Assembly (NCBI GenBank): GCA_963971285.1
Contig: OZ020248.1
Location: 19,055,873 to 19,119,872, forward strand
Reading direction: 5' to 3'
DNA length: 64,000 nt
DNA from: Astropecten irregularis
Taxonomy: Eukaryota > Echinodermata > Asteroidea > Paxillosida > Astropectinidae
The notes beneath the pieces were generated by a model. The model ran no database searches. It was not told the DNA's origin and saw nothing but the letters and a program-made list of their open reading frames with translations. The position numbers and the translations under genes were made by a program. Below are positions 1,861 to 56,353 of the stretch, piece by piece. The first letter of the stretch is position 1. Every line of letters begins with the position of its first letter.

Positions 1861-2413
1861 GTTCTTCCATCGATGACCAAGTTCACATGTGTTTAATAAA
1901 ACTAGTGTCCGCCTGTATCCCTTGCTAACAGAAACCCTTATATTCTTCTTTCAGGGTCAGAGTATGAACACATTTTAATGTTTTTAAATGACATGAAGAA
2001 AGGCGAAGAACAGGCGTGCAACTTGGACTTTCCAAACTTTACTATACTTTGTCCAGTGTTTTTTCAATGGCATAGGAGTGAAGAGATAAAAAGAGGAAAT
2101 CAGCTGATCTGAGGAAAAGTTGCATGCCTGAAAGAAGTATGGAGAGGGAGTGGTGTTGTGCGTGATTTAGAAGTACAGTGTAGTTGATGTGGTGGAGTAT
2201 GAAGGTGATTGGGATCATACTGGCAACATGTGTGAGAAGGGCAGGTGTGTCAAGATCCTAGGATTCAAGTAGTATGTCAGAAGAGAAGTGCTACGTCTGA
2301 ACGAGAAGAGTATTAAGGTATAATAATAATATAATAATTATGCACAGGTGGCAACATCATCAACAGCCAGCGATATCACAGGCACTTATACTTTCTCTTT
2401 CCTTGTCTTCCAG
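1861..2413. other. Intergenic stretch without a recognised feature
   Basis: AT-rich non-coding sequence. I see no long ORF, repeat or RNA gene. The end (TGTCTTCCAG at about 2404-2413) resembles the splice acceptor of the DUF4806-like exon at 5.7 kb, so the last part is probably intron of the decayed copy that follows. Confidence 0.5.
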
Positions 2414-2790
2414 GTTTTAATAAGACAGTTATTAAACTATTAACAGAGATGTCATTCGAGGTGAAAGAAATGAGGAAGCGAGTGGGCCACAATACATCGC
2501 TCCTTAATGATCTTTCATCTCAAAGATCAGGCACTCTGAATGAAGAGCCAGCATTGTCCAGTGGAGACCGACCTGGGAGTGATGCTGCCGATTTAACCAA
2601 AACCAGTTTCTCTGTGGATGATCCTCCATGTTTGCATTCCATAGTGTTTGGATGTAAATGCAGAATGATGCTGGAAACTCCACATTTGCATCTCAACTCC
2701 ACTACAAGAAGTTTGTATATGCATGCCATGGTATGCCTTCCTGCATCTGCTAGACATCAACTACCAAGAGCAGTTTATGTGAAGAGATAA
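2414..2790 (+). pseudogene. Truncated DUF4806-like exon (oldest copy)
   Basis: The first ~130 bases match the exons at 5.74 kb and 11.6 kb: a splice acceptor, then coding for the MSFEVKEMRKRV, NTSLLNDLSSQ and RSGTLNE motifs. After SGTLNE (about 2543) the reading frame stays open to 2790 but no longer matches the copies, so the conserved LPMKHDKDLQELE part is missing. The downstream TTTGCATCTCAACTCC stretch is seen again near 11350, before the exon of the second block, so the order is scrambled. It is a broken fragment of the transposon family that dominates 4-17 kb. Confidence 0.6.
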
Positions 2791-3068
2791 AGGCTCTTGT
2801 GGTCATAATCCTGAGATTGTGATTTGTGATGCAACCATCTGTCTCTACGGAAAGACCTTTCTCTGTGGAAGGAGAATTTACAAAGGGCTACAAAAAATAA
2901 AACTCAATCATCAACCAGATGACCTTGGGTTTGCTAAACTGAGACATACCAGCTCTACAGTGTTAAACTAATGTAGGTTTCCACTGTATACCATCCTGTA
3001 TGCTGTGTCCATGTGCTTTGACCATAGAGCCACATGTAGAAGTCATGTACTGAGATACTGAGAGTGTA

Positions 3069-4248: not shown

Positions 4249-5313
4249 ATGGCAATATGTGCCCTCATCAGGACTACACATACAGCAGTCCGAGTACCGT
4301 GCCATTTGTCTCTTTGCCAGCCAAATACTCAAGGCATCATAGAAAAGAGTATGCAAGAGATTAAAAGAGCCAAGCTTATTCACGATAGATGCAGGAATGT
4401 TGTCGATTTCGTTTGTATCTATGAGCGAGACATCCTACCTTTGCAGAGGGAATTTTGTGAAGCCTTATGCAAGGGTAAGAAGAAAAACAAAGGGAAGTCA
4501 TTAAAATTAGCTTCAGAAATATGGGCGAAGCGAAATAGATGCAGCACTCCAAACAATAAAGGTATTTATTTCACCCCTCCTGTACCTGGAAGTTAGTACA
4601 GGACTTTGTCGTACAAATAAACCTTGATTGCAACATATAACAAGACGCTGCTGAATTTTGTCTACAACTCATGGTGCCATTTTTTTCACGAATCATGTAT
4701 AACAAACCAAGTCCAAACTCAAAAGGTGTCATGTGCATCAACTGCAATGAAACAATCATCGTTGAAAATGACAAGGGTCGTCAGTAGAGTAACGAAGAGA
4801 GGCAACGAGGCCACGTCATCGATTCATGACTGTGCACGAGGTGGCTTACATGGCAAGGTGGCTTTACAAAGCGAGCGTCTCCTTTTTTATAAACATATGG
4901 GTCATTCATCCCTTGTCAACACCAATGTCTATCAAGCACCGTTAGCAATTGAAGAAGTCAGAAAGGTGGGACAGCACTTACAACAGATGGATTTGCAAAT
5001 GTATTTCGGAGACAGGGACCACAAGCAGGCCGGGAACTGCACAGCAACTTGTCCAGCACATTTTAACATGGGCAATGAGCGTGAAGGAGGACAACAATGT
5101 GCCCCAAAACTCTTGAACTCTAAAGAACCACTTCTCATTGATAGGCCCTCATTTCACTGGTACTACAGCGGAAGTAATGCATGCTATGCTCGCTATGATA
5201 ACGAAGGTAACCACCGTACCCATGATGCGTGTGGTTTCCAAAATGGCGTGCAACACGGGAGGACCGTGTACTTCCAAAGGCAATTAACAGTAACACACTT
5301 AAAACAACAATGA
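4249..5313 (+). pseudogene. Scrambled copy of the DUF4806/His-Cys/Mutator-like element
   Basis: Three pieces found in the 5.6-17 kb blocks occur here in shortened form. 4340-4595 encodes the linker (KRAKLIHDRCRNVVDF, KKNKGKSLKLASEIWAKR). 4650-4860 encodes the segment before the His-Cys box (HESCITNQVQ, KQSSLKMTR) and stops at GGLHG, just where the others continue to the zinc-binding box. 5007-5150 jumps to the Mutator-like part (GDRDHKQAGNCTATC, MGNEREGGQQCAPKLL). The whole His-Cys box and the first part of the Mutator-like domain are therefore deleted. The 229-residue ORF at 4624-5313 is this deletion product, not a functional fusion. Confidence 0.6.
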
Positions 5314-5673
5314 TGTGCGTACACATACACATTCTGCATAAATTGGATGTTGGATTCTCTGGATTCTCGCGAACATCATGGGGTGGGAATCCATATGGAT
5401 TCTCGCCATTTTTCACGAAATTCTAGGCCTGTAGGGTGACAACTGATACCTACGTTGGTATGGCACAAGGTGTCACATATGTTACGTAAGGCCGCAGGTA
5501 TGGAAATTAAGCATTTGTTAGACCCTCCTTGTTTGAATAGATCCTTTTGTGCAGTAAAGAGATGTTCATAATTAAGAAATTTAGTTCTTCTTCTTTGATT
5601 GGATGTGTTTTTTTATTTAAGTGGAAAAAACTGGTGGTAACGTACTTTATAAAAAAAACAAAAACGTTTAACC

Positions 5674-6003
5674 ATGCCTAATGTGATTCACCGCGAGATC
5701 ACCGCCGCCGATACTTACTCATGTTGTCTTCCAGGTTTTAATAAGACAGTTATAAAACTATTGACAGAGCTGTCATTCGAGGTTAAAGAAATTAGGAAGC
5801 GAGTGGACCACAATACATCGTTCCTTAATGACCTTTCATCACAAAGATCAGGCACTCTGAATGAAGACATGGTGGAGACGGACCTTGGAGTGACACTACC
5901 CATGAAACATGACAAAGACCTGCAGGAATTGGAGTTCAAACTAGAAGATGAAGACTTTGTCAAACAATTGGTAAGAAGAGGCAATGTGCAAGTCCTATGT
6001 TAA
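5674..6003 (+). CDS. DUF4806-like transposon exon, block 1
   Basis: A 109-residue open frame. Residues 23-55 are a helical, charged segment (LTELSFEVKEIRKRVDHN). Residues 75-100 read LPMKHDKDLQELEFKLEDED and FVKQLV, matching my memory of the start of the DUF4806 domain (P-L-x-T-x-x-E-L-x-x-L-E-x-x-L-x-D-x-x-F-x-x-x-L-V), a domain common in invertebrate transposon-derived proteins. The rest of a DUF4806 domain is not in this exon. An AG acceptor (TGTCTTCCAG) lies inside the ORF before GFNKTVIKLL, so the true exon probably begins near 5736. The same exon recurs at 11.6 kb. Function is unknown. Confidence 0.5.
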   Translation: MPNVIHREITAADTYSCCLPGFNKTVIKLLTELSFEVKEIRKRVDHNTSFLNDLSSQRSGTLNEDMVETDLGVTLPMKHDKDLQELEFKLEDEDFVKQLVRRGNVQVLC

Positions 6004-6468: not shown

Positions 6469-6773
6469 ATGTTATCACAATGTAAATAGACAAACTTCGA
6501 GGGAGATTTCAAATAACCGAGTTTCATGTTGGCAGATAGCCACAATCCAAGCCATGAAGACATTTTTCAACTGGACTAAACTCAGCACAACAAAATTTGA
6601 GAGAACGATGGTTATATTTGGAGATGTTTAATTCAATTATTCTATTATTCATGGCACTAGACACTGACAACGCTAGACCAGTTCCATCCCGTGAAATAAA
6701 GAAGTTAGTGTAGGACTGTGACGTACAAATAAACTTTGATTCTAACATACAACAAGACGCTGCCGAATTTTAT

Positions 6774-7148
6774 TTGCAACTCATGGTGCAATTTTTTCAC
6801 GAATCATGTATAACAAACCAAGTCCAAATTCAAAAAGTGTCATGTGCATCAACTGCAATGAAACAATCGTCGTTGAAAATGACAAGGGACGTCAGTAGAG
6901 TAAGGAGGAGAGGTAAAGAGGCCACATCATTGATTAATGACTATACACAGGGTGGCTTATATGGCACACACCGCCGAAATAAAAATCTGCCACGGGAGTG
7001 TGATGTAAGTCACCTGTGCAAGAATTCATTGTGTGTTTGCTTTGAGCATCTGTTGCTTGAGCCCAGAGCAGTAAATAATTCAAGAAAAATCTGCAAGAGA
7101 CAGCACAAGTGCCAAGGCCACGATGGTTTCAAAAACTGTATCATTTAA
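6774..7148 (+). CDS. His-Cys-box (I-PpoI-type) endonuclease exon, unit 1
   Basis: A 124-residue open frame, the only one of the four copies in which the N-terminal part and the zinc-binding box are in one frame. The box reads ECDVSHLC-KNSLCVCFEHL-(8)-N-NSRKIC-(5)-C-QGH-(5)-C. Spacings H-x-C, C-x4-C, C-x4-H, H-x8-N and N-x5-C equal those of the I-PpoI residues H98, C100, C105, H110, N119 and C125; the later C/C/H/C set is spaced slightly wider. This matches the Pfam zinc-binding loop of His-Me finger homing endonucleases. In I-PpoI the H and N are catalytic and the C/H residues bind two zinc ions. The joined frame depends on two extra bases in AAATAAAAATCTGCC compared with units 2-4. An ATG is at codon 4 of the frame. 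DNA-cleaving activity is inference. Confidence 0.6.
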   Translation: MQLMVQFFHESCITNQVQIQKVSCASTAMKQSSLKMTRDVSRVRRRGKEATSLINDYTQGGLYGTHRRNKNLPRECDVSHLCKNSLCVCFEHLLLEPRAVNNSRKICKRQHKCQGHDGFKNCII

Positions 7149-7159
7149 ATGATAGTGAC

Positions 7160-7730
7160 AGCCAGCCCACATTGATGGCAGATGCTGAGGAACTTTTGGG
7201 CTTGGCTGTGTTGGAGGAGGAGGCTCTTGTCAGCCAGGATACAATAGTGCCGCCTTCGGGGGAATTCCTAGCAAAACACAGCAAACAAATGGGGTGAAAT
7301 CATCACCGCAGAAAATCACAAGGACATGTGCGACAAAAGAACAATTGTGAAAGATATTCATGAACTCCAGGGTTATGAGAGAGACAGTGCAATTGCAGTG
7401 GAAATTGACCGTCAGTACAACAACCCTCTTTGGAACTGTCGCAAGAAAACGCCCTTCATTCCTGCAACTCAGACCAGAGATGTTGTCTGTGAAAATGTCA
7501 TGGCCAACAAATAAGTGGTGATGTATCACCAAGAGAACAAACTATGCAAAAAATGTGACAATGTCTGAGACAGGCACCACATCAAGCAGGCCGGGAACTA
7601 CACAGCCACTTGCAAAGCCTATTACAACATGGGCAATGAGCGTGAAGGAGGACAACAATGTGCCCCAAAACTCTTGAACTCTAAAGAACCACTTTTCATT
7701 GATAGGGTGACAACTGATACCTAAGGTTGT
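7160..7730 (+). pseudogene. Mutator-like transposase fragment, unit 1
   Basis: After an acidic linker (SQPTLMADAEELLGL) a frame from 7326 encodes MCDKRTIVKDIHELQGYERD, then EIDRQYNNPLWNCRKKTPF and PATQTRDVVCENV. A TAA at codon ANK-stop interrupts it; the frame then continues with VMYHQENKLCKKC, QAGNYTATC, MGNEREGGQQCAPKLL and a final VTTDT-stop. The string (Y-N-N-P ... K-T-P-F-x-P-A-T-Q ... C-E-x-V-T ... K-L-C-x-x-C ... G-N-E-x-x-x-x-x-x-C-A-x-x-L ... V-T-T-D) resembles the metazoan Mutator-like transposase domain, ending at its first aspartate-rich motif. The in-frame stop, also in units 2 and 3, makes it a pseudogene or a segment needing splicing. Confidence 0.45.
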
Positions 7731-7899
7731 CTTGCACAAGGTGTTACATATGCAAAGTAAGGCTGCAGGTATGGAAATTTAGCATTTGATAGACCCTCCT
7801 CGTTTGAAGAGATTCCTCTGTGCAGCTGTAAGTCTTGCCAAATTCAGTAAAGAGATGTTCCCATGAGGCTCCATGATCCAAGGATGGCATCATCTCAGG

Positions 7900-8275
7900 G
7901 GAAGAAATAAATCATTCCCACTGAAAGCTGTGTGTGAGAAGGAGCTGGATGTCAGAAGAGAGGGGAGGGGGTCCTGACATGTCTGAGAGCTGAAGGGCAC
8001 GATTCAAGTAGTGAAGAGGAAGATGAAGATGGGGAGGAAAGCAACCAAACTGTGACATCTGGGTGCTTTCCCCACATCTGCAGCTAGATGGCCAGGGGAA
8101 CATCATTGAGAAGGATGAACAATCCTACCAATGGATTGATAAGCTCCTTCCGAGGGAGTTCGGCACTTTCGATCCGACGGAATTGCTGAAGGATGTTTTC
8201 GTGTCATTGGCCGAAACGCTGCACGAAAATGCAATATCTGCATTTTTCTCAGTTGGTGAGATAATCATGTGTTAA
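7900..8275 (+). pseudogene. C-terminal piece of the array element, unit 1
   Basis: An acidic serine stretch (DSSSEEEDEDGEESNQT in the best frame, out of frame here) is followed by an ORF at 8063-8275 reading NIIEKDEQSYQWIDKLLPRE, then FGTFDPTELLKDVF and SLAETLHENAISAFFSV. The same piece recurs at 9900-10080, 13914-14150 and 15760-15950. I do not recognise the family. In the longer copies (units 2 and 4) it leads into the IIKDRNPTDLPQKDS motif that is also seen at 52.3 and 53.8 kb, so it is part of the same protein family. Confidence 0.4.
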
Positions 8276-8601
8276 TCATCAGAAGAAAAAACTAATCATC
8301 CACATCCAATCGAATGTTGACAGATTCACCACTGAACTTTCTACGTCCTTTGGCAGTGGTGGAATGGAATGAGGTGGATTGATCCACACCTTTTCCTCAG
8401 AGGATTTAAGGAAATTCTTCCTACATGAAGTGGAAAGATTCAATGAGTAAGTATGATCTGAAACACAAAAACCACAATTCAAGCCATGAAGACATTTTTC
8501 AGCTCGTCCAAACTCAGTGCAACCAAATTTGAGAGACTGATGGTTATATTTGGAGACGTTTAATTCAATTATTCCTGGAATTATTCACTGCGGAATTTTA
8601 T

Positions 8602-8974
8602 TTGCAACTCATGGTGCCATTTTTTCACAAATCATGTATAACAAACCAAGTCCAAATTCAAAAAGTGTCATGTGCATCAACTGCAATGAAACAATCATCG
8701 TTGAAAATGTTGAGGGACGTCAGTAGAGTAACGAGGAGAGGTAATGTGGCCACATCATTGATTAATGACTATATACAGGGTGGCTTATATGGCACACACC
8801 GCCGAAATAAATTTGCCACGGGAGTGTGATGTTAGTCACCTGTGCCAGAATTCATTGTGTGTTTGCTTTGAGCATCTGTCGCTTGAGCCCAGAGCAGTAA
8901 ATAATTCAAGAAAAATCTGCAAGAGACGACACGAGTGCCAAGGCCACGGTGGATTCAAAAACTGTATCATTTAA
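8602..8974 (+). pseudogene. His-Cys-box endonuclease exon, unit 2 (frameshifted)
   Basis: The N-terminal frame (8602-8829) runs off after THRRNKFATGV, and the zinc-binding box (ECDVSHLCQNSLCVCFEHLS, then LEPRAVNNSRKIC and CQGHGGFKNC) is in the next frame at 8765-8974. All zinc ligands and the H and N predicted to be catalytic are kept. The frame break lies at AAATAAATTTGCC, where unit 1 has two more bases. Units 2, 3 and 4 share this break, so either unit 1 was changed or an intron boundary lies here. Confidence 0.55.
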
Positions 8975-8989
8975 ATGATAGTGACAGCC

Positions 8990-9540
8990 AGCCCACATTG
9001 ATGGCAGATGCTGAGGAACTTTGGGGCTTGGCTGTGTCGGAGGAGGAGGCTCTTGTCAGCCAGGATACAATAGTGCCGCCTTCGGGGGGAATTCCTAGCA
9101 AAACACAGCAAACAAATGGGGTGAAATCATCACCGCAGAAAATCACAAGGACATGTGCGACAAAAGAACAATTGTGAAAGATATTCATGAACTCCAGGGT
9201 TATGAGAGAGACAGTGCAATTGCAGTGGAAATTGACCGTCAGTACAACAACCCTCTTTGGAACTGTCGCAAGAAAACACCATTCATTCCTGCAACTCAGA
9301 CCAGAGATGTTGTCTGTGAAAATGTCACGGCCAACAAATAAGTGGTGATGTATCACCAAGAGAACAAACTATGCAAAAAATGTGACAATGTCGGAGACGG
9401 GGACCACATCAAGCAGGCCGGGAACTACACAGCCACTTGTAAAGCCTATTACAACATGGGCAATGAGCGTGAAGGAGGACAACAATGTGTCCAATACTCT
9501 TGAACTCTAAAGAACCACTTTTCATTGATAGGGTGACAAC
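8990..9540 (+). pseudogene. Mutator-like transposase fragment, unit 2
   Basis: Nearly identical to unit 1: linker SQPTLMADAEELWGL, then MCDKRTIVKDIHE at 9153, the TAA after TANK, and the continuation with HIKQAGNYTATC and NEREGGQQC. Near 9490 the copy has TGTCCAATACTC where the others have TGCCCCAAAACTC, which breaks the CAPKLL motif. It is not functional as it stands. Confidence 0.45.
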
Positions 9541-9889
9541 TGATACCTAAGGTTGTCTTGCACAAGGTGTTACATATGCAAAGTAAGGCTGCAGGTATGG
9601 AAATTTAGCATTTGATAGACCCTCCTCGTTTGAAGAGATTCCTCTGTGCAGCTGTAAGTCTTGCCAAATTCAGTAAAGAGATGTTCCCATGAGGCTCCAT
9701 GATCCAAGGATGGCATCATCTCAGGGGAAGAAATAAATCATTCCCACTGAAAGCTGTGTGTGAGAAGGAGCTGGATGTCAGAAGAGAGGGGAGGGGGTCC
9801 TGACATGTCTGAGAGCTGAAGGGCATGATTCCAGCAGTGAAGAGGAAGATGAAGATGGGGAGGAAAGCAACCAAACTGGGACATCTGGG

Positions 9890-10470
9890 TGCTTTCACCA
9901 GCAGCTAGATGGCCAGGGGAACATCATTGAGAAGGATGAACAGTCCTACCAATGGATTGATAAGCTCCTTCCGAGGGAGTTCGGCACTTTTGACCCGACG
10001 GAATTGCTGAAGGATGTGTTCGTGTCATTGGCCGAAACGCTGCATGAAAATGCAATATCTGCATTCTTCTCAGTTGATGAGATAATCATATGTGTCAATC
10101 ATCAGAAGAAAAAAACTAATTATCGACATCTTTTAACATCTCTGAACATATACAAAGAAGTCCAGCACACATAGCTTATCAATACTTTCTTCAGGCTGTC
10201 ATGGAATTCATAATAAAAGATAGAAATCCGACTGATTTACCACAAAAAGATTCAGCTTCAGGACTGCATCCCATTTCATATGAGCAAGTACTACGTGGTT
10301 TTAGTAACACTATTAATTTCTGCTTACTATTTTAAATCTTTTATTTCAGATTTTTTGCCAGGACATGCTTTGTCACCAATTGGGCATTCCAATCGAACGT
10401 TGACAGATTCACCACTGAACTGTCTTCGTTGTTTGGCAGTGGTGGAATGGGATGAGGTGGATTGATCCAC
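9890..10470 (+). pseudogene. C-terminal tail of block 1 (DLPQKDS family)
   Basis: A frame reads QLDGQGNIIEKDEQSYQWID, then LLPREFGTFDPTELLKDVF and HENAISAFFSVDEIIICVN. After a break it gives AYQYFLQAVMEFIIKDRNPT and DLPQKDSASGLHPISYEQ. A typical acceptor (TTTTATTTCAG at about 10339-10349) follows. The II-K-x-R-N-x-x-D-L-P motif is shared with 52.27 kb and 53.77 kb, where LRYVAGYI follows, so this is the same unnamed transposon protein family. Stops and frame changes make it a relic. Confidence 0.4.
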
Positions 10471-11580
10471 ACCTTTTCCTCAAAGGATTTCAGGAAATTC
10501 TTTCTGCACTAAGTAGAAAGATTTTATGATAAGTTCAGAAGAGCTCACCAACAGTCTACAGGAGGCCAACACACAAGTAGCTGAAATTTCCTGTTCCCAG
10601 GGGTGAACAGTGCTTCTTCAGCACAGCACCCAATGCAGTGCTGATGAAGGATGTCATGCTACTCCGCCCTAAAGTTGTCAAGACTACTCCTCTTGATGAA
10701 GACAGCAGAACTCCGCAGTCCAGCCGATTAGTCAGATGGAGGGGTGAGAGCGACATACTGGTTTGTTGACATCAACGCCTATCATCAGCTATCTCGACAG
10801 AAACGTCAAATGTACATGTACCGATAGTACCACACCTTCCCATGTGCCACCTGAGTTGAAGAAGCTGATATGAGCACATTGAATAAATGAATTTTTTTGT
10901 TGATACACCCTATAGTGACCAAATCAACACATGTAAATTACAAAAAGTGAGCACATTTTGAAACTCCAAAAATGGAGGAATTTTAGTCTTTTTAAGTCTT
11001 TCAAGTCCACTATGAGCTTCTATTCAGAAGCACTGAAATTGTGCCTACCTAAAGATTGGAAATGAAATGGTTAGCCATAAACAGTTAACAGAAAATTTCC
11101 TTGGTTTTATAATCAAACTAACTTAACCCTAAAAGTGCCAATTTTGTTTACAATTGTTGACCTTAAAAAGACCTTCACAATAGTAGAATGCATACAAACT
11201 ACTATGCTGCTATGAAGAGATGTTCATAATTAAGAAATGTTGTTGTTCTTCTTTGATTGGATGGTGTTCTTTCTATTTAAGTGGAAAAACTGGTGGTAAC
11301 GTACTTTATATAAAAAAAACGTTTTAAAACCATGTCCAACTCCACATTTGCATCTCAACTTCATTACAAGAAGTTTGTATGAGGATGGTATGGCTTCTTC
11401 TGTTAGACATCAACCGCCAAGAGCAGTTTATGTGTAGAGATAGCTCATGTGGTCAGAATCCTGAGATGGTGATTTGTGATGCAACACATCTGTCTATAGG
11501 GGAAAGACCTTTATCTGTGGAAGGAGAATTTACAAAGGGCTACAAAATATAAAACTGAATCATCAACCAGATTTTCTCTT
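10471..11580. other. Tail of block 1 and head of block 2, non-coding
   Basis: 10471-10990 matches 16340-16960 closely (block tail). 11217-11330 matches 5561-5670 (block head: GAGATGTTCATAATTAAGAA, then CTTTGATTGGATG). No ORF with a recognisable domain is present. Minus-strand ORFs at 10556-10756 and 16434-16634 are identical only because the DNA is duplicated. Confidence 0.6.
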
Positions 11581-11609
11581 TGTGTTGTCTTCCAGGTTTC
11601 AATTAGGCA

Positions 11610-11870
11610 GTGATAAAACTATTAACAGAGATGTCATTCGAGGTGAAAGAAATGAGGAAGCGAGTGGACCACAATACATCGCTCCTTAATGATCTTTCAT
11701 CACAAAGATCAGGCACTCTGAATGAAGATGTGGTGGAGATGGACCTTGGAGTGACACTACCCATGAAACATGACAAAGACCTGCAGGAATTGGAGTTAAA
11801 ACTTGACGATGAAGACTTTGCCAAACAATTGGTAAGAAGAGGTAATGTGCAAGTCCTATGTCAACTTTAA
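11610..11870 (+). CDS. DUF4806-like transposon exon, block 2
   Basis: An 86-residue frame with the same motifs as at 5.7 kb: MSFEVKEMRKRVDHNTSLLN, then LPMKHDKDLQELELKLDDED and FAKQLVRR. Substitutions relative to block 1 are mostly conservative (FKLEDEDF to LKLDDEDF), but the upstream GFNK becomes a frame with TAG (CAATTAGGCAG), so the 5' part of the exon is damaged. It matches the beginning of DUF4806. Function is unknown. Confidence 0.45.
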   Translation: MIKLLTEMSFEVKEMRKRVDHNTSLLNDLSSQRSGTLNEDVVEMDLGVTLPMKHDKDLQELELKLDDEDFAKQLVRRGNVQVLCQL

Positions 11871-11949
11871 TGTTGCATGATTGATTACGTAGACACACCA
11901 TACCAAAAATATTCAAAACTCTACAACTCCTTAAAAATACCAAAGTCAT

Positions 11950-12520
11950 AGAAAAAGAGTATGCAAGAGGAAAAAAGAGCCAAGCATATTCACGATAGAT
12001 GCAGATATGTTGTTGATTTCGTCCGTATCTAAGAATGTGAGATCCCACCTTCGCAGAGGCAATTTTGTGAAGCCTTATGCAAAGGTAAGAAGAAAAACAA
12101 AGGGAAATCATTGAAATTAGCTTCAGAAATATGGGCGAAGCGAAATAGATGCAGCACTCCAAACAATAAAGGTGTTTATTTCACACCTCCTGTACCTGGA
12201 CTCCAGTTTAAAGAGAAACCCAAACAAAAGCAAGTTAACGCTCAGAAGGAAAAAATGTGACATTCGTGATTCAGACATTGATTCACCAGCCTCATCCCTA
12301 CCCTGCAAAAAGTCTAAAAAAGGCTCCGAATGTCCCCACAATGTTAATGTTAGACAAACTTTGAGGGAGATTTCAAATAACCAAGTTTCATGTTGGCGGA
12401 TAGCCACAATCCAAGCCATGAAGCCATTTTTCAACTGGGCTAAACTCAGCACAACAAAACTTGAGAGAACGATGGTTATATTTGGAGACGTTTATTTCAA
12501 TTATTCTTGGCACTAGACAT
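11950..12520 (+). pseudogene. Lysine-rich linker exon, block 2 (frameshifted)
   Basis: The KRAKHIHDRCRYVVDFVRI-like start contains a stop (CGTATCTAAGAATGTG where block 1 has CGTATCTATGAACGAG), and the tail is shifted by an additional base near 12255. The KKNKGKSLKLASEIWAKRNR core is kept. This is a decayed paralogue of the block 1 ORF at 6100-6468. Confidence 0.45.
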
Positions 12521-12629
12521 TGACAACACTAAACCAGTTCCATTCTGTGAAATTAAGAAGTTAGTGTAGGACTGTGACGTACAAATAAACTTTGATTCTA
12601 ACATACAACAAGACGCTGCAGAATTTTAT

Positions 12630-12999
12630 TTGCAACTCATGGTGCAATTTTTTCACGAATCATGTATAACAAACCAAGTCCAAATTCAAAAAGTGTCATG
12701 TGCATCAACTGCAATGAAACAATCGTCGTTGAAAATGACAAGGGACGTCAGTAGAGTAAGGAGGAGAGGTAAAGAGGCCACATCATTGATTAATGACTAT
12801 ACACAGGGTGGCTTATATGGCACACACCGCCGAAATAAATTTGCCAAGGGAGTGTGATGTAAGTCACCTGTGCAAGAATTCATTGTGTGTTTGCTTTGAG
12901 CATCTGTTGCTTGAGAGAGCAGTAAATAATTCAAGAAAAATCTGCAAGAGACAGCACAAGTGCCAAGGCCACGATGGTTTCAAAAACTGTATCATTTAA
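12630..12999 (+). pseudogene. His-Cys-box endonuclease exon, unit 3 (frameshift plus codon deletion)
   Basis: Same layout as unit 2: the first frame ends at THRRNKFAKGV and the box is in the next frame from 12793. It has lost one codon between the fifth zinc-site residue and the predicted catalytic asparagine (LLLERAVNN where the others have LLLEPRAVNN), which shortens the H-to-N spacing by one. Zinc ligands are otherwise kept. Confidence 0.5.
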
Positions 13000-13009
13000 A
13001 TGATAGTGA

Positions 13010-13580
13010 CAGCCAGCCCACATTGATGGCAGATGCTGAGGAACTTTTGGGCTTGGCTGTGTCGGAGGAGGAGGCTCTTGTCAGCCAGGATACAATAGTG
13101 CCGCCTTTGGGGTAATTCCTAGCAAAACACAGCAAACAAATGGGGTGAAATCATCACCGCAGAAAATCACAAGGACATGTGCGACAAAAGAACAATTGTG
13201 AAAGATATTCATGAACTCCAGGGTTATGAGAGAGACAGTGCAATTGCAGTGGAAATTGACCGTCAGTACAACAACCCTCTTTGGAACTGTCGCAAGAAAA
13301 CACCCTTCATTCCTGCAACTCAGACCAGAGATGTTGTCTGTGAAAATGTCACGGCCAACAAATAAGTGGTGATGTATCACCAAGAGAACAAACTATGCAA
13401 AAAATGTGACAATGTCTGAGACAGGGACCACATCAAGCAGGCCGGGAACTACACAGCCACTTGTAAAGCCTATTACAACATGGGCAATGAGCGTGAAGGA
13501 GGACAACAATGTGCCCCAAAACTCTTGAACTCTAAAGAACCACTTTTCATTGATAGGGTGACAACTGATACCTAAGGTTG
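13010..13580 (+). pseudogene. Mutator-like transposase fragment, unit 3
   Basis: A frame from 13177 encodes MCDKRTIVKDIHE, EIDRQYNNPLWNCRKKTPF and PATQTRDVVCENVTANK, followed by TAA and then the KQAGNYTATC and NEREGGQQCAPKLL continuation ending VTTDT-stop. The stop is at the same codon as in units 1 and 2. Confidence 0.45.
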
Positions 13581-13779
13581 TCTTGCACAAGGTGTTACAT
13601 ATGCAAAGTAAGGCTGCAGGTATGGAAATTTAGCATTTGATAGACCCTCCTCGTTTGAAGAGATTCCTCTGTGCAGCTGTAAGTCTTGCCAAATTCAGTA
13701 AAGAGATGTTCCCATGAGGCTCCATGATCCAAGGATGGCATCATCTCAGGGGAAGAAATAAATCATTCCCACTGAAAGC

Positions 13780-14171
13780 TGTGTGTGAGAAGGAGCTGGA
13801 TGTCAGAAGAGAGGGGAGGGGGTCCTGACATGTCTGAGAGCTGAAGGGCATGATTCCAGCAGTGAAGAGGAAGAGGAAGATGGGGAGGAAAGCAACCAAA
13901 CTGGGATATCTGGGTGCTTTCCCCACATCTGCAGCTAGATGGCAAGGGGAACATCATTGAGAAGGATGAACAGTCCTACCAATGGATTGATAAGCTCCTT
14001 TCGAGGGAGTTCGGCACTTTCGATCCGACGGAATTGCTGAAGGATGTTTTCATGTCATTGGCCGAAACGCTGCACGAAAATGCAATATCTGCATTCTTCT
14101 CAGTTGGTGAGATAATCATGTGTCAATCATCAGAAGAAAAAACTAATCATCCACATCCAATCAAAAGTTGA
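13780..14171 (+). pseudogene. C-terminal piece of the array element, unit 3
   Basis: Encodes NIIEKDEQSYQWIDKLLSRE, FGTFDPTELLKDVF and HENAISAFFSVGEIIMCQ, then runs out at 14171. It matches 8063-8275 and has a damaged acidic stretch upstream. Family not recognised. Confidence 0.35.
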
Positions 14172-14449
14172 CAGATTCACCACTGAACTTTCTACGTCCT
14201 TTGGCAGTGGTGGAATGGAATGAGGTGGATTGATCCACACCTTTTCCTCAGAGGATTTAAGGAAATTCTTCCTACATGAAGTGGAAAGATTCAATGAGTA
14301 AGTATGATCTGAAACACAAAAACCACAATTCAAGCCATGAAGACATTTTTCAGCTCGTCCAAACTCAGTGCAACCAAATTTGAGAGACTGATGGTTATAT
14401 TTGGAGACGTTTAATTCAATTATTCCTGGAATTATTCACTGCGGAATTT

Positions 14450-14819
14450 TATTTGAAACTCATGGTGCCATTTTTTCACTTATCATGTATAACAAACCAA
14501 GTCCAAATTCAAAAAAATGTCATGTGCATTAACTGCAATGAAACTATCGTCGTTGAAAAATGACAAGGTGGAGTAACATGGAGAGGTAAAGAGGCCACAT
14601 CATTGATTAATGACTATACACAGGGTGGCTTATATGGCACACACCGCCGAAATAAATTTGCCACGGGAGTGCAATGTAAGTCACCTGTGCCAGAATTCAT
14701 TGTGTGTTTGCTCTGAGCATCTATCGCTTGAGCCCAGAGCAGTAAATAATTCTAGAAAAATCTGCAAGAGATGGCACGAGTGCCAAGGCCACGATGGTTT
14801 CAAAAACTGTATCATTTAA
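14450..14819 (+). pseudogene. His-Cys-box endonuclease exon, unit 4 (frameshifted)
   Basis: The zinc-binding box is intact at 14610-14819 (ECNVSHLCQNSLCVCSEHLS, then RAVNNSRKIC, CQGHDGFKNC). The N-terminal part is more damaged than in the other units: an additional base and a deletion near 14555-14580 remove the TRDVSRV segment. All predicted zinc ligands and the H and N are conserved, which is notable for a copy that is otherwise decaying. Confidence 0.5.
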
Positions 14820-14829
14820 ATGATAGTGA

Positions 14830-15400
14830 CAGCCAGCCCACATTGATGGCAGATGCTGAGGAACTTTTGGGCTTGGCTGTGTCGGAGGAGGAGGCTCTTG
14901 TCAGCGATGGATAAAATGGTGCCTTCTGGGAATTCCTAGCAAAACACAGCAAACAAATGTGGTGAAATCATCACCCCAGAAAATCACAAGGACATGTGCG
15001 ACAAAAGAACAATTGTGAAAGATATTCATGAACTCCAGGGTTATGAGAGAGACAGTGCAATTGCAGTGGAAATTGACCGTCAGTACAACAACCCTCTTTG
15101 GAACTGTCGCAAGAAAACACCCTTCATCCCTGCAATGCAGACCAGAGATGTGGTTTATGAAAATGTCACGGCCAACAAATATGTGGTGATGTATCACCAA
15201 GAGAACAAACTATGCAAAAAATGTGACAATGTGTGACAATGTCGGAGACAGGGACCACATCAAGCAGGCCGGGAACTACACAGCCACTTGCAAAGCCTAT
15301 TACAACATGGGCAATGAGCGTGAAGGAGGACAACAATGTGCCCCAAAACTCTTGAACTCTAAAGAACCACTTTTCATTGATAGGGTGACAACTGATACCT
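14830..15400 (+). pseudogene. Mutator-like transposase fragment, unit 4 (stop codon absent)
   Basis: The frame from 14994 runs MCDKRTIVKDIHE ... NNPLWNCRKKTPF ... VVYENVTANKYVVMYHQENK-LCKKCDNV. Where units 1-3 have the stop TAA after ANK, this unit has TAT (Tyr), so reading continues 19 codons further. It then stops because CAATGTGTGACAATGTC carries a short local duplication (TGTGACAA twice). The original protein therefore probably read ANKYVVMYHQ through this point, which supports the Mutator-like reading of the whole segment. Confidence 0.45.
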
Positions 15401-15739
15401 AAGGTTGTCTTGCACAAGGTGTTACATATGCAAAGTAAGGCTGCAGGTATGGAAATTTAGCATTTGATAGACCCTCCTCGTTTGAAGAGATTCCTCTGAG
15501 CAGCTGTAAGTCTTGCCAAATTCAGTAAAGAGATGTTCCCATGAGGCTCCATGATCCAAGGATGGCATCATCTCAGGGGAAGAAATAAATCATTCCCACT
15601 GAAAGCTGTGTGTGAGAAGGAGCTGGATGTCAGAAGAGAGGGGAGGGGGTCCTGACACGTCTGAGAGCTGAAGGGCATGATTCCAGCAGTGAAGAGGAAG
15701 AGGAAGATGGGGAGGAAAGCAACCAAACTGGGATATCTG

Positions 15740-16345
15740 GGTGCTTTCCCCACATCTGCAGCTAGATGGCCAGGGGAACATCATTGAGAAGGATGAACAG
15801 TCCTACCAATGGATTGATAAGCTCTTCCGAGGGAGTTCGGCACTTTCGACCCGACGGAATTGCTGAAGGATGTGTTCGTGTCATTGGCCGAAATGCTGCA
15901 TGAAAATGCAATATCTGCATTCTTCTCAGTTGATGAGATAATCATGTGTCAATCATCAGAAGAAAAAACTAATTATCGACATCGTTTAACATCTCTGAAC
16001 ATATACAAAGAAGTCCAGCACACATAGCTTATCAATACTTTCTTCAGGATGTCATGGAATTCATAATAAAAGATAGAAATCCGACTGATTTACCACAAAA
16101 AGATTCAGCTTCAGGACTGCATCCCATTTCATATGAGCAAGTACTACGTGGTTTTAGTAACACTATTTATTTCTGCTTACTATTTTAAATCTTTTATTTC
16201 AGATTTTTTGCCAGGACATGCTTTGTCACCAATTGCCAGGACATGCTTTGTCACCAATTGGGCATTCCAATCGAACGTGGACAGATTTACGACTGAACTG
16301 TCTACGTTGTTTGGCAGTGGTGGAATGGGATGAGGTGGATTGATC
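15740..16345 (+). pseudogene. C-terminal tail of block 2 (DLPQKDS family)
   Basis: Matches 9890-10470: NIIEKDEQSYQWID, FDPTELLKDVF, HENAISAFFSVDEIIMCQ, then MEFIIKDRNPTDLPQKDS and the TTTTATTTCAG acceptor. One base is lost at AAGCTCTTCCGAGG (others AAGCTCCTTCCGAGG), and a 29-bp duplication GCCAGGACATGCTTTGTCAC occurs twice near 16210-16255. It is a relic. Confidence 0.4.
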
Positions 16346-17051
16346 CACACCTTTTCCTCAAAGGATTTCAGGAAATTCTTTCTGCACGAAGTAGAAAGAT
16401 TTTATGATAAGTTCAGAAGAGCTCACCAACAGTCTACAGGAGGCCAACACACAAGTAGCTGAAATTTCCTGTTCCCAGGGGTGAACAGTGCTTCTTCAGC
16501 ACAGCACCCAATGCAGTGCTGATGAAGGATGTCATGCTACTCCGCCCTAAAGTTGTCAAGACTACTCCTCTTGATGAAGACAGCAGAACTCCGCAGTCCA
16601 GCCGATTAGTCAGATGGAGGGGTGAGAGCGACATACTGGTTTGTTGACATCAACGCCTATCATCAGCTATCTCCACAGAAACGTCAAATGTACATGTACC
16701 AGTACTACCACACCTTCCCATGTGCCACCTGAGTTGAAGAAGCTGATACGAGGCACACTTAATAAATGATTTTTTTTGGTTGATACACCCTGTAGTGACC
16801 AAATCAACACGTGTAAATTACAAAAAGGGAGCACATCTTGAAACTCCAAAAATGGAGGAATTTTAGTCTTTTTAAGTCTTTCAAGTCCACTATGAGCTTC
16901 TATTCAGAAGCACTGAAATTGTGCCTACCTAAAGATTGGAAATAAATGGTTCTAGCCATTGACAGTTAACAGAAAATTTCCTTGGTTTATAATCAAACTA
17001 ACTTTTTGTTTACAATTGTGGACCTTAACAAGACCAATAGTAGAATGCATA

Positions 17052-17240
17052 CAGCTCCCATAAATGGTCCTACCCTGATAACCCCACCTTTGGCTCACCG
17101 GGTCAATTATTTGGGCGATGGAGAGGAAAGGTCCTAGCCCTGAGCAAAGAAACTTTATCAACTCAAACTTTTCTCTGAGAGGAAAGGATGAATGCAAACT
17201 GCAGAGGGGTAAAAGGGAGGCAGTCAACAAACTGTTTGTG
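17052..17240 (+). repeat. Paralogous copy of the 23.3-23.48 kb minisatellite end
   Basis: Reads CTCCCATAAATGGTCCTACC, CACCGGGTCAATTATTTGGG, then GAGAGGAAAGGTCCTAGCCC and continues to AGGGAGGCA. It matches the last minisatellite unit and unique flank at 23300-23475 over ~180 bases with few differences. The repeat-plus-flank unit has therefore moved within the region or been duplicated with it. Confidence 0.75.
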
Positions 17241-22640: not shown

Positions 22641-22755
22641 CATGAATCAAAATTGGCCTGTATAAGGACCGTCAATGGGGCCAATATTGTTGCTGCCGTC
22701 AGACAGTTGGGCTGGGCATGGCTCAACTGTTTTGGTCACAACCTAAACTTGGCAC
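22610..22755 (+). pseudogene. hAT (ZBED-type) transposase fragment
   Basis: The frame encodes LPELQEWNLHESKLACI, then RTVNGANIVAAVRQLGW and NCFGHNLNLA. This matches the conserved part of ZBED-type hAT transposases (T-T-D-N-G-x-N-I-V-A-A ... L-G-W-x-W-x-x-C-F-G-H-x-L-x-L-A). The acidic residue of T-T-D-N-G, a catalytic position in the hAT core, is Val here, so the fragment would be inactive. The downstream sequence is replaced by the 84-bp minisatellite directly after NLA. Confidence 0.6.
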
Positions 22756-23395
22756 ATCGGGTCAATTATTTGGTCGAAGGAGAGGATTCCAAGACAGCTC
22801 CCACAGATGGTCCGAACCTGCCAACCCCACCTATGGCTCATCGGGTCAATTATTTGGTCGATGGAGAGGCTCCCAAGACAGCTCCCATAGATGGTCCTAC
22901 CCTGCCAACCCCACCTATGGCTCATTGGGTCAACAATTATTTAGTGGATGGAGAGGCTTCCAAGACAGCTCCCACAGATGGTCCGAATCTGCCAACCCCA
23001 CCTATGGCTCATCGGGTCAATTATTTGGGCGATGGAGAGGCTTACAAGACAGCTCCCACAAATGGCCCTACCCTGCCAACCCCAACCATGGCTCATCGGG
23101 TCAATTATTTAGTCGATGGAGAGGCTTCCAAGACAGCTCCCACAGACAGTCCGAACCTGTCAACCCCACCTATGGCTCGTTGGGTCAATTATTTCGCTGA
23201 TGGAGAGGCTCCCAAGACAGCTCCCACAGATGGTCCTACCCTGCCAACCCCACCTATGGCTCGTTGGGTCAATTATTTAGCCAATGGAGAGGCTCCCAAG
23301 ACAGCTCCCACAGATGGTCCTACCCTGCCAACCCCACCTTTGGCTCATCGGGTCAATTATTTTGGCGATGGAGAGGAAAAGGTCCTAGCCCTGAG
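22745..23395 (+). repeat. In-frame 84-bp coding minisatellite (~8 copies)
   Basis: Units of about 84 bases (one is 87) repeat ATGGCTCATCGGGTCAATTA and TTTGGTCGATGGAGAGGCT. As 84 is a multiple of three, the reading frame is unbroken across the array and each unit encodes 28 residues such as PPMAHRVNYLVDGEAPKTAP. Two overlapping frames (22614-23429 and 22718-23200) stay open for the same reason. The frame continues from the hAT fragment, giving a 271-residue ORF. Differences between units are mostly single substitutions, and one unit carries an additional codon (HWVNNYLVDG). Confidence 0.85.
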
Positions 23396-23489
23396 CAAAG
23401 AAACTTTGTCAACTCAAACTTTTCTCTGAGAGGAAAGGATGAATGCAAACTGCAGAGGGGTAAAAGGGAGGCAATGGACTCCACAAAGA

Positions 23490-34985: not shown

Positions 34986-35241
34986 CGTCCCGGGGTGCGT
35001 TCCGCTTACGCGAACGTTGCCAACGTACGCCAACGTTTGCAAACAATGGGAGACTTTTGACTTTCTGGTAATCACCACGAGAGGGCGCTCGCGGTCAGGT
35101 AAACAGTTGGCTGGGTTGTGTATACGTATAATTATTTTGTGTGGGCACGACGCTTTGAAAATTAAAAGCTAACACTCGCTCGAGCTCTGCATAATTATTT
35201 TTCTCATCGTGGGAATTTACTCAGCACGTTTTTGAGGCAGC

Positions 35242-37383
35242 ATGCCCAATATATCATGTGCTGTTCCAAATTGTTCTGGCACTGGAGGCAGTGGCCACGA
35301 TTTTCCGAGAAATCGGAAACGATGTAATGCCTGGCGAGTGGCCATCAGAAGAGTCAAGGATGATTCAGGCCATTCTTGGTGGCCATCCACGTATGATATG
35401 GTGTGTGCCAAGCATTTTTTGCCTTCAGACTTCGAGGAATTTGGAAAATGTGGTAAGTCTGTGAATGAAACTGTTGGACCATACTGTGCAAATTGGGTGG
35501 GTTTTGAATTTTGAGCCTGGGACATGTGATGTGAAAAGTATATGAGTGTGAGCATTTTAACGTGACTCATTCATTCATTGTCCATTGATACATATTAGGT
35601 CTAACTTTAGAGCGTGTACTAATAATAGTAATACTACAGGCCCAGATACATGTAGAAATAGAACACTTTCCAAATTTTTAAAGGTACTCAAAAACAGGGC
35701 AGCACAATCAATACAGTTAGAGTGCTGCCCTTGGATTTTTACAGGGGAGAGGGGATGACCTGTCTATCAAGACTAGAATTAGGCCCTATTATCAAATTTT
35801 GATAAAAAATGATTAATTTATTATCAAATGTTTTATTAAGAGGGTTCCCAAAATAAACAACTCTCTTAATAAAACAGTTGAATTTTTGTGTTGTATCATA
35901 TATTTTATGAGGTGACTGTTTCTGTTGCAAATTTACTAATTGCTCTGCAAAGCTGTGACATTGTGAGCCATGGCATTACACACATAATTATATTTGCTAT
36001 TGGGGGCATAGACCTCATAATTATGGGCATGATCACATAGACTACTTTATTATAGCCAAATAATTGAAGTAATGAAGAGAGAAGTGATGGATCTTCATGT
36101 TCAGAAAACCATGATCATTTTTATTTGGAAACAAAGCATACTGAGTGTGTTTTCTTTTTTTAATTTGTCAAACTACAGGGCTAAAACTGAAGCGGAAGAG
36201 ATTAAAGCCAGATGCTGTACCAAGTCATTTTGCATGGAGCAAGAAACCAACATCTCAAGATGAAGCCAGGGCAGATCGTCTGTGTAAACGTAGTATGCAG
36301 AAAGAAAAAGAGGTTTGCTCGAAGGAACATCAACTAGATGTTGATTTAACCTTAGATCTTGACCTGGCAATGGAGGTCAATGTTGAGAATAACGACGAGA
36401 GGGTGCACCATCAGGCTGTACAAACGAACCCAAGCATTCTGCCGATCTATGAATCCACTCCTACTCAAACGGACACTGTGGTGATGGGATTTACGGTTGA
36501 TGATTTTATGAATGATTCGGCTGGAATTCAGTACTACACAGGATTGCAAGATTACCAAACTTTCATGGATGTATTAGCTTCACTTGGCCCTAGTGCTTTT
36601 AAGTTGACTTACATTAATAACATAAGGCCAAGGTTGACTGTGCCAGATCAACTGTTTTTGACATTAGTGAAGTGTAGGAGATACACATCCCATTTTGAAT
36701 TGAGCCGAATGTTTAAAGTCTCCGAGTCTGAAGTGTACAGCATCTTTGGCACATGGATAAGATTTATGCATCTCCAGTGGAGTGAAGTGAATATCTGGCC
36801 AAGCAGAGATATAGTTTATTTCTATGCTCCATCTGACTTCAAGAGGAAATTTCCGACCACTCGCACTATTATTGATGGGTTTGAGTTCCCAGTGAAAAAA
36901 CCCAAAGCACCTGCAGCCCAGCAAGTGACATTTTCTACATATAAACACAGAAACACTGCAAAGGCTATTGTTGGTGTAACTCCAGGTGGTTTAGTTTCCT
37001 GTATTTCAGAGGTGTATGGTGGGTCAACCAGCGACAGACAGATGACAGAGAGGAGTGGAATCATCAGTAAAGTCAGCCCGGGTGATTCTATAATGGCAGA
37101 CAAAGGATTTGATGTACAGGATATGTTTGCCCCTGTGGATGTCACTGTCAACATTCCTACTTTCTTTCAGAATAAAAACAGAATGACAGGACAGTCTGTT
37201 GCCAGAGATAGAAAGATATCTAGTAAAAGGGTCCACGTTGAAAGAGTGATTGGACTAGGGAAGACATATAGAATATTGACACAACCACTGAATCATACAG
37301 AAATGATTCTAGCTTCAGATATAGCATTTATTTGTTTCATGCTTGTAAATTTTAGGAAATGTATAGTGCCAAGAAATGCCTAA
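35242..37383 (+). CDS. THAP-DDE transposase (ISL2EU type), two exons
   Basis: Exon 1 is 35242-35452, exon 2 is 36179-37383; donor G|GTAAGT and acceptor CTACAG|GG keep the frame (phase 1) and give 471 residues. Residues 1-70 form a THAP zinc finger: C6-x4-C11, FP at 21-22, W31, C55-x2-H58-F59. The catalytic part has IIDGFEFPV (D303), IMADKGFDV (D378) and HVERVIG (E425), the DDE layout of the DDE_Tnp_4-type domain used by IS5-like and ISL2EU transposases. Residues ~72-85 are strongly basic (LKLKRKRLK), a possible nuclear signal. The start is the first ATG after the left terminal region. AATAAA occurs ~270 bases after the stop. All key residues are present, so the protein could be active; it would cut at the terminal inverted repeats in the nucleus. 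Confidence 0.85.
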
Positions 37384-47370: not shown

Positions 47371-48070
47371 ATTCCTGTATAATGACTATGTACATAATAA
47401 TAATAGAAACATTCAGAAAGACATGTATGCAAATTGAGTACATATTACATGTATGTATGAACATCAGCAGAATCACACCTTTTCTGCAAACTAAACATAG
47501 TACTGTCAAAATACTGAGCTTGCATTCTACAGATTACAAAATGGTGGTTTTGGTTGGGATTGTAGAAAAGGAGGAAAATAAAGAATTGTGTACACAAGCT
47601 GTGCTCGATCATCAATAAAAACATCATGAGTGCGATGGTCAGCCAAAACCATTGGCAAAGACAGAAGAGCTACGAGGCTTAGCTGCATCCAAGGCAAGAA
47701 GTGTGAATACAAAACAGAAGATGCAGTACTGCATAGTGAAATAGCTCACAAGGGCAAGAGGCAGGGAAGATGCAAAGTATCTTGATCTATCTTGAAATGG
47801 AAAACGCAAGGCCTTTTCACACGACGCTAAAAAAACTTGCAACCACTGAGAAATTTTCTCAAGGTTGCGAATTCTTACAAAAACGTTTTTACGCTCTATG
47901 TTTTTTGCGTCCTTTAACATGGCACAGTGGAACATTTTGCAAGCCTCCCTTGAGACACGAATACTTATTCCACGGGTAATCGGTAGGCTATGCACAATGT
48001 AAACGCTGCTAGTGCTACAGTAGTACCAACATGACATGTCTAAGGTCACGTTGGAGACTGGTACTGGTAC
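47371..48070. other. No confident feature
   Basis: A 204-residue minus-strand frame (47639-48253) spans most of this stretch but is antisense to the better-looking Myb-like start at 48071 and has no domain. Otherwise non-coding. Confidence 0.4.
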
Positions 48071-50230: not shown

Positions 50231-50356
50231 CACAGGAAAAGGAGGAATGGGAAAGGCTGGCCAAACATTTCGAAATAAACAATGGCCAGATTGAGAAGAA
50301 GCATTTGCAGAATGAGAATGATTGTCTGCTTACAAAGCAATCAATTTATTCAACTT

Positions 50357-51270
50357 GAGCAACACTCCACCTCATCTGCTTTCCATCATGTCATGGCAAC
50401 TGGGCCAGCTGGTAGCAAGACTAAGCCACACACCATGGTGAGCAACACTCCGTCTCATCTGCAAGCCATCATGTCATGGCAACTGGGCCAGCTGGTAGCA
50501 AGACTAAGCCACACAACATGGTGAGCAACACTCCATCTCATCTGCTGGTCATCATGTCATGGCAACTGGGCCAGCTGGTAGCAAGACTAAGCCACACACC
50601 ATGGTGAGCAACACTCCACCTCATTTGCTAGCCATCATGTCATGGCAACTGGGCCAGCTGGTAGCAAGACTAAGCCACACACCATGGTGAGAAACACTCC
50701 ACCTCATCTGCTGGTCATCATGTCATGGCAACTGGGCCAGCTGGTAGCAAGACTTAGCCACACACCATGGTGAGCAACACTCCACCTCATCTGCTGGTCA
50801 TCATGTCATGGCAACTGGGCCAGTTGGTAGCAAGACTAAGCCACACACCATGGTGAACAACACTCCATATCATCTGCTGGCCATCATGTCATGGTGACTG
50901 GGCCAGCTGGTAGCAAGACTAAGCCACACACCATGGTGAGCAACACTCCACCTCATCTGCTGGCCATCATGTCATGGTGACTGGGCCAGCTGGCAGCAAG
51001 ACTAAGCCACACACCATGGTGAGCAACACTCCACCTCATCTGCTGGCCATCATGTCATGGTGACTGGGGCAGGTGGTAGCAAGACTAAGTCACACACCAT
51101 GGTGAGCAACACTCCATCTCATCTGCTGGCCATCATGTCATGGCCACTGGGCCAGCTGGTAGCAAGACTAAGCCACACACCATGGTGAGAAACACTCCAC
51201 CTCATCTGCTGGCCATCATGTCATGGCAACTGGGCCAGCTGGTAGCAAGACTAAGCCACACACTATGGTG
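50357..51270 (+). repeat. 83-bp minisatellite, 11 copies
   Basis: Eleven consecutive units of 83 bases start GAGCAACACTCCACCTCATC and contain CATCATGTCATGGCAACTGG and CCACACACCATGGT. Units are 90-99% identical by eye; variants include GTGACTGG for CAACTGG in a run of three to four adjacent units (50880-51070), a sign of array growth by local duplication. As 83 is not a multiple of three, the frame rotates from unit to unit, so the array is not coding overall. Confidence 0.95.
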
Positions 51271-56160: not shown

Positions 56161-56353
56161 TGGCTGACGGTAAGTCATAACCTTAGCACCGGTAGTCTCA
56201 TGAGGGCGTCCTATTGTTGACCTTTGTTACCTGACACCGGATGTTGATGACATTTGCGAGTGCGCTTGGCGCGAAATCAGTCTTTCGAAACTCTTCCGTT
56301 CATAATTTCAGCCTTGTCGACGCGTAATTTCAAAGATTTCAATATAATACACC

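Follow-up and report, generated by a model that had tools for sequence, protein, structure and literature searches.

KolobokP transposons, reported as 228 families in seven animal phyla, combine a Kolobok DDE transposase with an I-PpoI-like nuclease (PMC9587614; Kojima and Bao 2022). As described there, the nuclease gene is located downstream of the transposase gene and on the complementary strand in most families, while the elements carry paired terminal direct repeats of ~450 or 660 bp with their own terminal inverted repeats (TIRs), and also occur as solo repeats and tandem multimers (PMC9587614). The nuclease has been proposed to drive tandem multimerisation through induced unequal crossover, a model which, according to the same source, still awaits experimental validation (PMC9587614). 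That animal Kolobok transposons have captured an I-PpoI-like nuclease is already published (PMC9587614), and no second description of this pairing was recognised in the titles and abstract openings among the matches listed. Here, a 64,000-nucleotide stretch of the Astropecten irregularis genome (contig OZ020248.1, positions 19,055,873 to 19,119,872; hereafter the window) was found to contain a tandem array which is very probably a relic left by a DNA transposon of the Kolobok superfamily, one of those that carry an I-PpoI-like His-Cys nuclease, with KolobokP as the closest described system. Like KolobokP, as portrayed in that source, the window associates an animal Kolobok-type DDE transposase and an I-PpoI-like His-Me nuclease that is small and free-standing, and does so in tandem copies. 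An accessory protein beside a Kolobok transposase is likewise described for KolobokE, KolobokD, Kolobok0 and KolobokH, with a lambda-exonuclease-like nuclease, a DEDDh exonuclease, KolX and a RecQ helicase, respectively (PMC9587614).

Four nuclease-coding copies (Table 1) occur at the places where an earlier note, made on this DNA from the sequence alone, had put them. All four exceed the curated cut-off of 27 bits for PF05551 (zf-His_Me_endon), with scores of 32.5 and 32.9 bits for copy 1 (open reading frame, ORF, from 6774 and 6714, respectively), 36.7 bits (8762), 29.5 bits (12790) and 35.6 bits (14607). HNH_3 (PF13392) is the sole other Pfam family matched by the four copies at E <= 1, and falls under its own cut-off. 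Comparison by tblastn against P0001, an intact relative of 130 amino acids (aa), gave E values of 6e-31 or lower (3e-41 at 8762, 9e-38 at 14607, 7e-36 at 12748 and 6e-31 at 6960), and, judged from these matches, the nuclease homology of the four copies is far beyond chance. The nuclease family frame in the copies reads ...RVAYMAHTAEINLPRECDVSHLC..., and alignment to I-PpoI via P0001 shows that S97, H98, C100, C105, H110, E114, N119, R122 and C125 are retained with I-PpoI spacing. The copy placed at 6774 by the earlier note is real, but its homologous stretch begins only at ~6934: because of a 2-bp insertion private to copy 1, the 6714-7148 ORF fuses two frames and is out of frame up to NLPREC. 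Self-comparison of the DNA further revealed a fifth, more deleted copy at ~4.6-5.6 kb, the nuclease remnant of which is not significant as a protein match alone (tblastn vs P0001, E 1.6).

When residues 92-144 of the 6714-7148 ORF served as query, a protein search returned P0001 and P0002 (137 aa), 2 from 2 candidates. A search with a profile built from these two proteins and window copies 2, 3 and 4 (alignment A1) yielded 83 proteins among 475 candidates. Each relative is encoded by a single ORF, in most cases of 120-160 aa, and one has a named source (P0086, Branchiostoma belcheri). With I-PpoI numbering taken from the alignment of P0001 to I-PpoI chains, the MAFFT alignment of the 83 relatives shows near-complete conservation of S97 (83), H98 (83), C100 (83), C105 (83), H110 (81), E114 (80), N119 (80), R122 (79) and C125 (79), as well as of a second zinc set (C 79, H 75, C 78). 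In the N-terminal half, the first-site cysteine (C28 of P0001, the C41-equivalent) is kept in 64/83. The spacing within the second zinc set differs from that of I-PpoI, the corresponding positions of which we take to be C132 and C138. The catalytic His and Asn had been predicted to be conserved and, since H98 is found in 83/83 and N119 in 80/83 relatives, the family agrees with that prediction; the catalytic status of individual residues follows PMC9587614 as far as given there. The predicted fold of P0001 resembles that of I-PpoI, a Physarum His-Cys box homing endonuclease (PDB 1A73, 1A74 and others), in a structure model followed by a second-look alignment. The identification as an I-PpoI-type His-Cys box nuclease, likewise made in the earlier note, is thus supported by the profile and by the second-look structural alignment. 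Unlike I-PpoI, the window nuclease lies outside any group I intron. By analogy with I-PpoI, the intact relatives presumably cleave DNA site-specifically.

No relatives were detected in viral contigs with the close nuclease alignment (A1), a wider nuclease alignment (A4) or an alignment of the transposase relatives described below (A2). Among prokaryote genome contigs, one contains nuclease relatives and none contains transposase relatives. This contig (JAFEGF010000153.1, 5782 bases), binned as a Verrucomicrobia metagenome-assembled genome, encodes three diverged I-PpoI-type His-Cys ORFs in a row on the + strand (490-1209, 2287-3036 and 4332-4826; 239, 249 and 164 aa). Comparison of the 16 transposase relatives against it gave no match at E <= 1e-3, and it is possibly a eukaryotic contaminant.

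The window copies are incomplete. Frameshift-tolerant alignment begins at P0001 residue 61 in 4/4 copies, with about the first 60 residues missing, and plain tblastn extends back to residue 50 in two copies only via in-frame stops. According to the P0001 model, the first-site cysteine, helix 2-18 and the strands between residues 20 and 52 all belong to this missing part. A frameshift-hidden N-terminal half was rejected for copy 3, the copy tested: residues 1-62 of P0001, P0002 and P0019 were not found upstream of it (12200-12795), with frameshift-tolerant scores of 24-27 no better than those on shuffled DNA (means 26-27; 30 shuffles each). The C41-equivalent, which is the fourth ligand of zinc site 1 and is borne by the N-terminal half, and the N-terminal DNA-binding part were not found: the window copies represent fragments of a PF05551 member and no working members. 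The window nuclease ends where P0001 ends (NCII, then stop). Within the reach of the searches, the nuclease is a stand-alone protein in its relatives and no exon of a larger protein, so that the designation of the copies as exons finds no support.

The partner of the nuclease fragments is a transposase, termed Mutator-like in the earlier note, and this association holds. A composite read, taken from unit 4 and extended by a tail of unit 3, matches PF20700 with 28.9 bits against a cut-off of 26.5, and a protein search with the transposase core yielded 16 hits among 59 candidates, 15/16 of which carry PF20700. The best relative, P0003 (608 aa), shows 91% identity over 83% of the query. Residues 352-608 of P0003 have no match anywhere in the window, and the C-terminal part is missing from the fragments. 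In 4/4 units, 2 bp separate the nuclease stop codon from the start of the first transposase match, both being on the + strand. Fusion of the two parts in one protein is not supported: 0/83 nuclease relatives carry PF20700 and 0/16 transposase relatives carry PF05551, with length filters that would miss fusions of more than ~690 aa. A further, DUF4806-like part found no backing, as neither 5653-6000 (E <= 1) nor a read of 11607-11867 (E <= 10) has a Pfam match.

D198 and D301 are still present in the window transposase copies, which lack the third acidic residue. Among nine of the 16 transposase relatives that were aligned (A2), two of which stop short of the last residues, D198, D301, D303 and H331 are invariant, while position 328 is D in eight and C in one. 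A C-H-C-C finger is present in 7-8/9, and E474 in all seven that reach it. A CCHC finger after the first catalytic D is readable by eye in 6/9, including P0003, with P0005, P0008 and P0010 each wanting one of the four C/C/H/C residues. The Kolobok signature is described as C/DxxH with a zinc finger between this motif and the third acidic residue, some lineages having a CCHC finger after the first D (PMC9587614), and, on the residues listed, the transposase relatives fit it.

Several observations weigh against the assignment to a KolobokP-like element. The Kolobok call rests on the signature as worded in PMC9587614 and not on direct comparison with a named Kolobok protein. P0001 is only weakly similar to I-PpoI in single-sequence comparison (E 0.24), I-PpoI is absent from the two hits of the window ORF in the same kind of comparison, and Foldseek on its own produced nothing at E <= 0.001, its best hit having E 0.016. 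In contrast to the arrangement given for most KolobokP families, the window nuclease is upstream of the transposase and on the same strand. No paired 450- or 660-bp direct repeats flanking the array were seen in the self-comparison of a relic which is truncated, no TIR search having been made. Relative to KolobokP as described, the window elements are also truncated and dead, and their tandem units are unlike (LTDR-INT)n. Because strand and order differ and paired repeats are not visible, the locus is called a KolobokP-like relic and not a tested member. Finally, 4/4 copies have two in-frame stops in common shortly before the nuclease, yet a frame of 68-69 residues is open from an ATG in three of the four. 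As this ATG comes after the last shared stop, a product of that size is formally possible in three copies.

The arrangement on the + strand, with nuclease and transposase 2 bp apart in four units and in the same order in the fifth remnant, could alternatively be the native order of a distinct KolobokP-related lineage in which the nuclease gene precedes the transposase. This is unlikely: all copies derive from one ancestor and so amount to a single observation, and the order looks rearranged, with the transposase starting at residue 64, lacking residues ~86-135 and having its N-terminus elsewhere, and the nuclease starting only at residue 61. A fuller version, in which an undescribed KolobokP sister lineage with an upstream, same-strand nuclease and no long terminal direct repeats perhaps owed its tandem amplification to a double-strand break and unequal crossover triggered in trans by a related nuclease, is a little more doubtful again. 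The open frame, with catalytic and zinc residues present, could also suggest domestication, in which the host would have kept the fragment after truncation and tandem amplification, perhaps to serve as a DNA-binding or dominant-negative protein. However, the ungapped variable sites in the nuclease stretch (n = 17) fall on codon positions 1/2/3 as 7/4/6, which gives no sign of purifying selection, 17 sites being a weak test, and copy 1 is frameshifted; domestication is accordingly considered highly improbable. The persistence of residues where frames have decayed, pointed out in the earlier note, is no sign of constraint, because the copies are 94.8-98.6% identical duplicates with such a distribution of sites.

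The locus is best explained as a KolobokP-like relic that was already defective when it multiplied. Common to 4/4 transposase units are the change H331 -> R and stops after GNS and after GMEI; these shared lesions place the loss of function before multiplication. Units 1, 3 and 4 also have a stop at residue 303, where the alignment of unit 2 is out of frame, but the DNA of this region (repeat family D2) is 99-100% identical among the four units. The two large tandem segments, spaced at ~5.86 kb, each hold two units at ~1.83-kb spacing. Unit identity is 98.6% for 1/3 (1580/1602), 96.6% for 2/4 (1531/1585) and 95.6% for 1/2 (1520/1590), with 94.8-95.8% for the other three pairs. From this structure we infer that a piece which was already dead gave rise to the array through nested tandem duplication, with no visible selection since. 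Equal divergence of 1/3 and 2/4, as expected from a single segment duplication, was not observed, and gene conversion or assembly could explain the difference. The high identity of the units, and the closer match of 1/3 than of 2/4, would also be compatible with collapsed or duplicated haplotypes that make the four copies partly an assembly error and not a true array, but the units differ by 1.4-5.2%, carry private lesions (the 2-bp insertion, a codon deletion and an 8-bp deletion) and occur twice within each segment, which makes this explanation quite improbable.

Intact relatives encode two separate proteins: a DDE transposase, which moves the element, and a nuclease of ~130 aa. By analogy with I-PpoI, the latter would presumably bind a semi-palindromic site as a dimer and cut it in a staggered manner, His98 being the general base and Asn119 the metal holder. 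A truncated piece, in which nuclease residues 61-130 are fused to transposase residues 64-85 and ~136-351 and function was already lost, would then have been copied as a ~1.83-kb-spaced unit nested in a ~5.86-kb-spaced segment, giving four copies which decay without visible constraint. The locus can thus be regarded as an unusual but largely explained fossil. Its interest beyond the published description lies in a small structural difference (strand and order, no visible paired repeats) and in the intact relatives in public data. It represents one more case of a homing-type nuclease on an animal DNA transposon with intact close relatives that are public, and tandemly duplicated nuclease-bearing loci are places to look for nuclease-induced unequal crossover. 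In the window, the duplication came after local nuclease death.

Table 1. Nuclease, transposase and segment features of the array and its surroundings in the window
Feature	Position	Strand	Evidence and remarks
Nuclease fragment, copy 1 (P0001 residues 61-130)	6934..7148	+	PF05551, tblastn; frame shifted before NLPREC by 2-bp insertion
Nuclease fragment, copy 2	8762..8974	+	89% identity to P0001 across shared part; same final residue, then stop
Nuclease fragment, copy 3, one codon deleted	12790..12999	+	83% identity to P0001 across shared part
Nuclease fragment, copy 4	14607..14819	+	84% identity to P0001 across shared part
Fifth deleted copy, remnant of nuclease start	4829..4855	+	DNA: 4589-4855 88.8% identical to 6701-6966
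Kolobok-type transposase fragment, unit 1	7151..7863	+	P0003 residues 64-85 and ~136-351
Kolobok-type transposase fragment, unit 2	8977..9689	+	P0003 residues 64-85 and 149-351
Kolobok-type transposase fragment, unit 3	13002..13714	+	P0003 residues 64-85 and ~136-351
Kolobok-type transposase fragment, unit 4	14822..15541	+	P0003 residues 64-85 and ~136-351; main source of PF20700-matching read
Transposase fragments of fifth deleted copy	5005..5556	+	P0003 mapping
N-terminal transposase fragment	10542..10800	+	P0008 16-68 at 10542-10700; P0003 1-53 at 10656-10800
N-terminal transposase fragment, second segment	16420..16678	+	P0008 16-68; P0003 1-53 at 16534-16678
Separate transposase fragment	47535..47774	+	No break at P0003 residue 64; not accompanied by a nuclease match
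First large tandem segment	5722..11196		95.2% identical to 11583-17053, self-comparison
Second large tandem segment	11583..17053		Self-comparison

Coding-looking sequence is located directly before the nuclease fragments (12390-12745 and its repeats). A deubiquitinase (USP)-like reading of ~12390-12745 was rejected, with no Pfam match at E <= 10 and a single, unconvincing solved-structure hit at E 0.75; a motif resemblance to deubiquitinases is supported by no search. Further coding-looking repeats lie between the units (9764-10171, 13866-14168, 10120-10335 and 15973-16188), and the reads tried have no Pfam match. Elsewhere in the window, a THAP domain (35236-35511) is followed by a 412-aa DDE_Tnp_4 transposase ORF (36145-37380) within 35236-37380 (+), while a 463-aa ORF with a YqaJ-like recombinase/exonuclease domain is encoded at 38052-39440 (-). 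A second DDE_Tnp_4 transposase ORF, of 384 aa and presumably Harbinger-like, occurs at 60483-61634 (-), and a Myb/SANT ORF at 56348-56719 (+). Furthermore, two tandem arrays are present, of 84-bp units at 22742-23445 (~7 copies) and of 83-bp units at 50356-51270 (11 copies).

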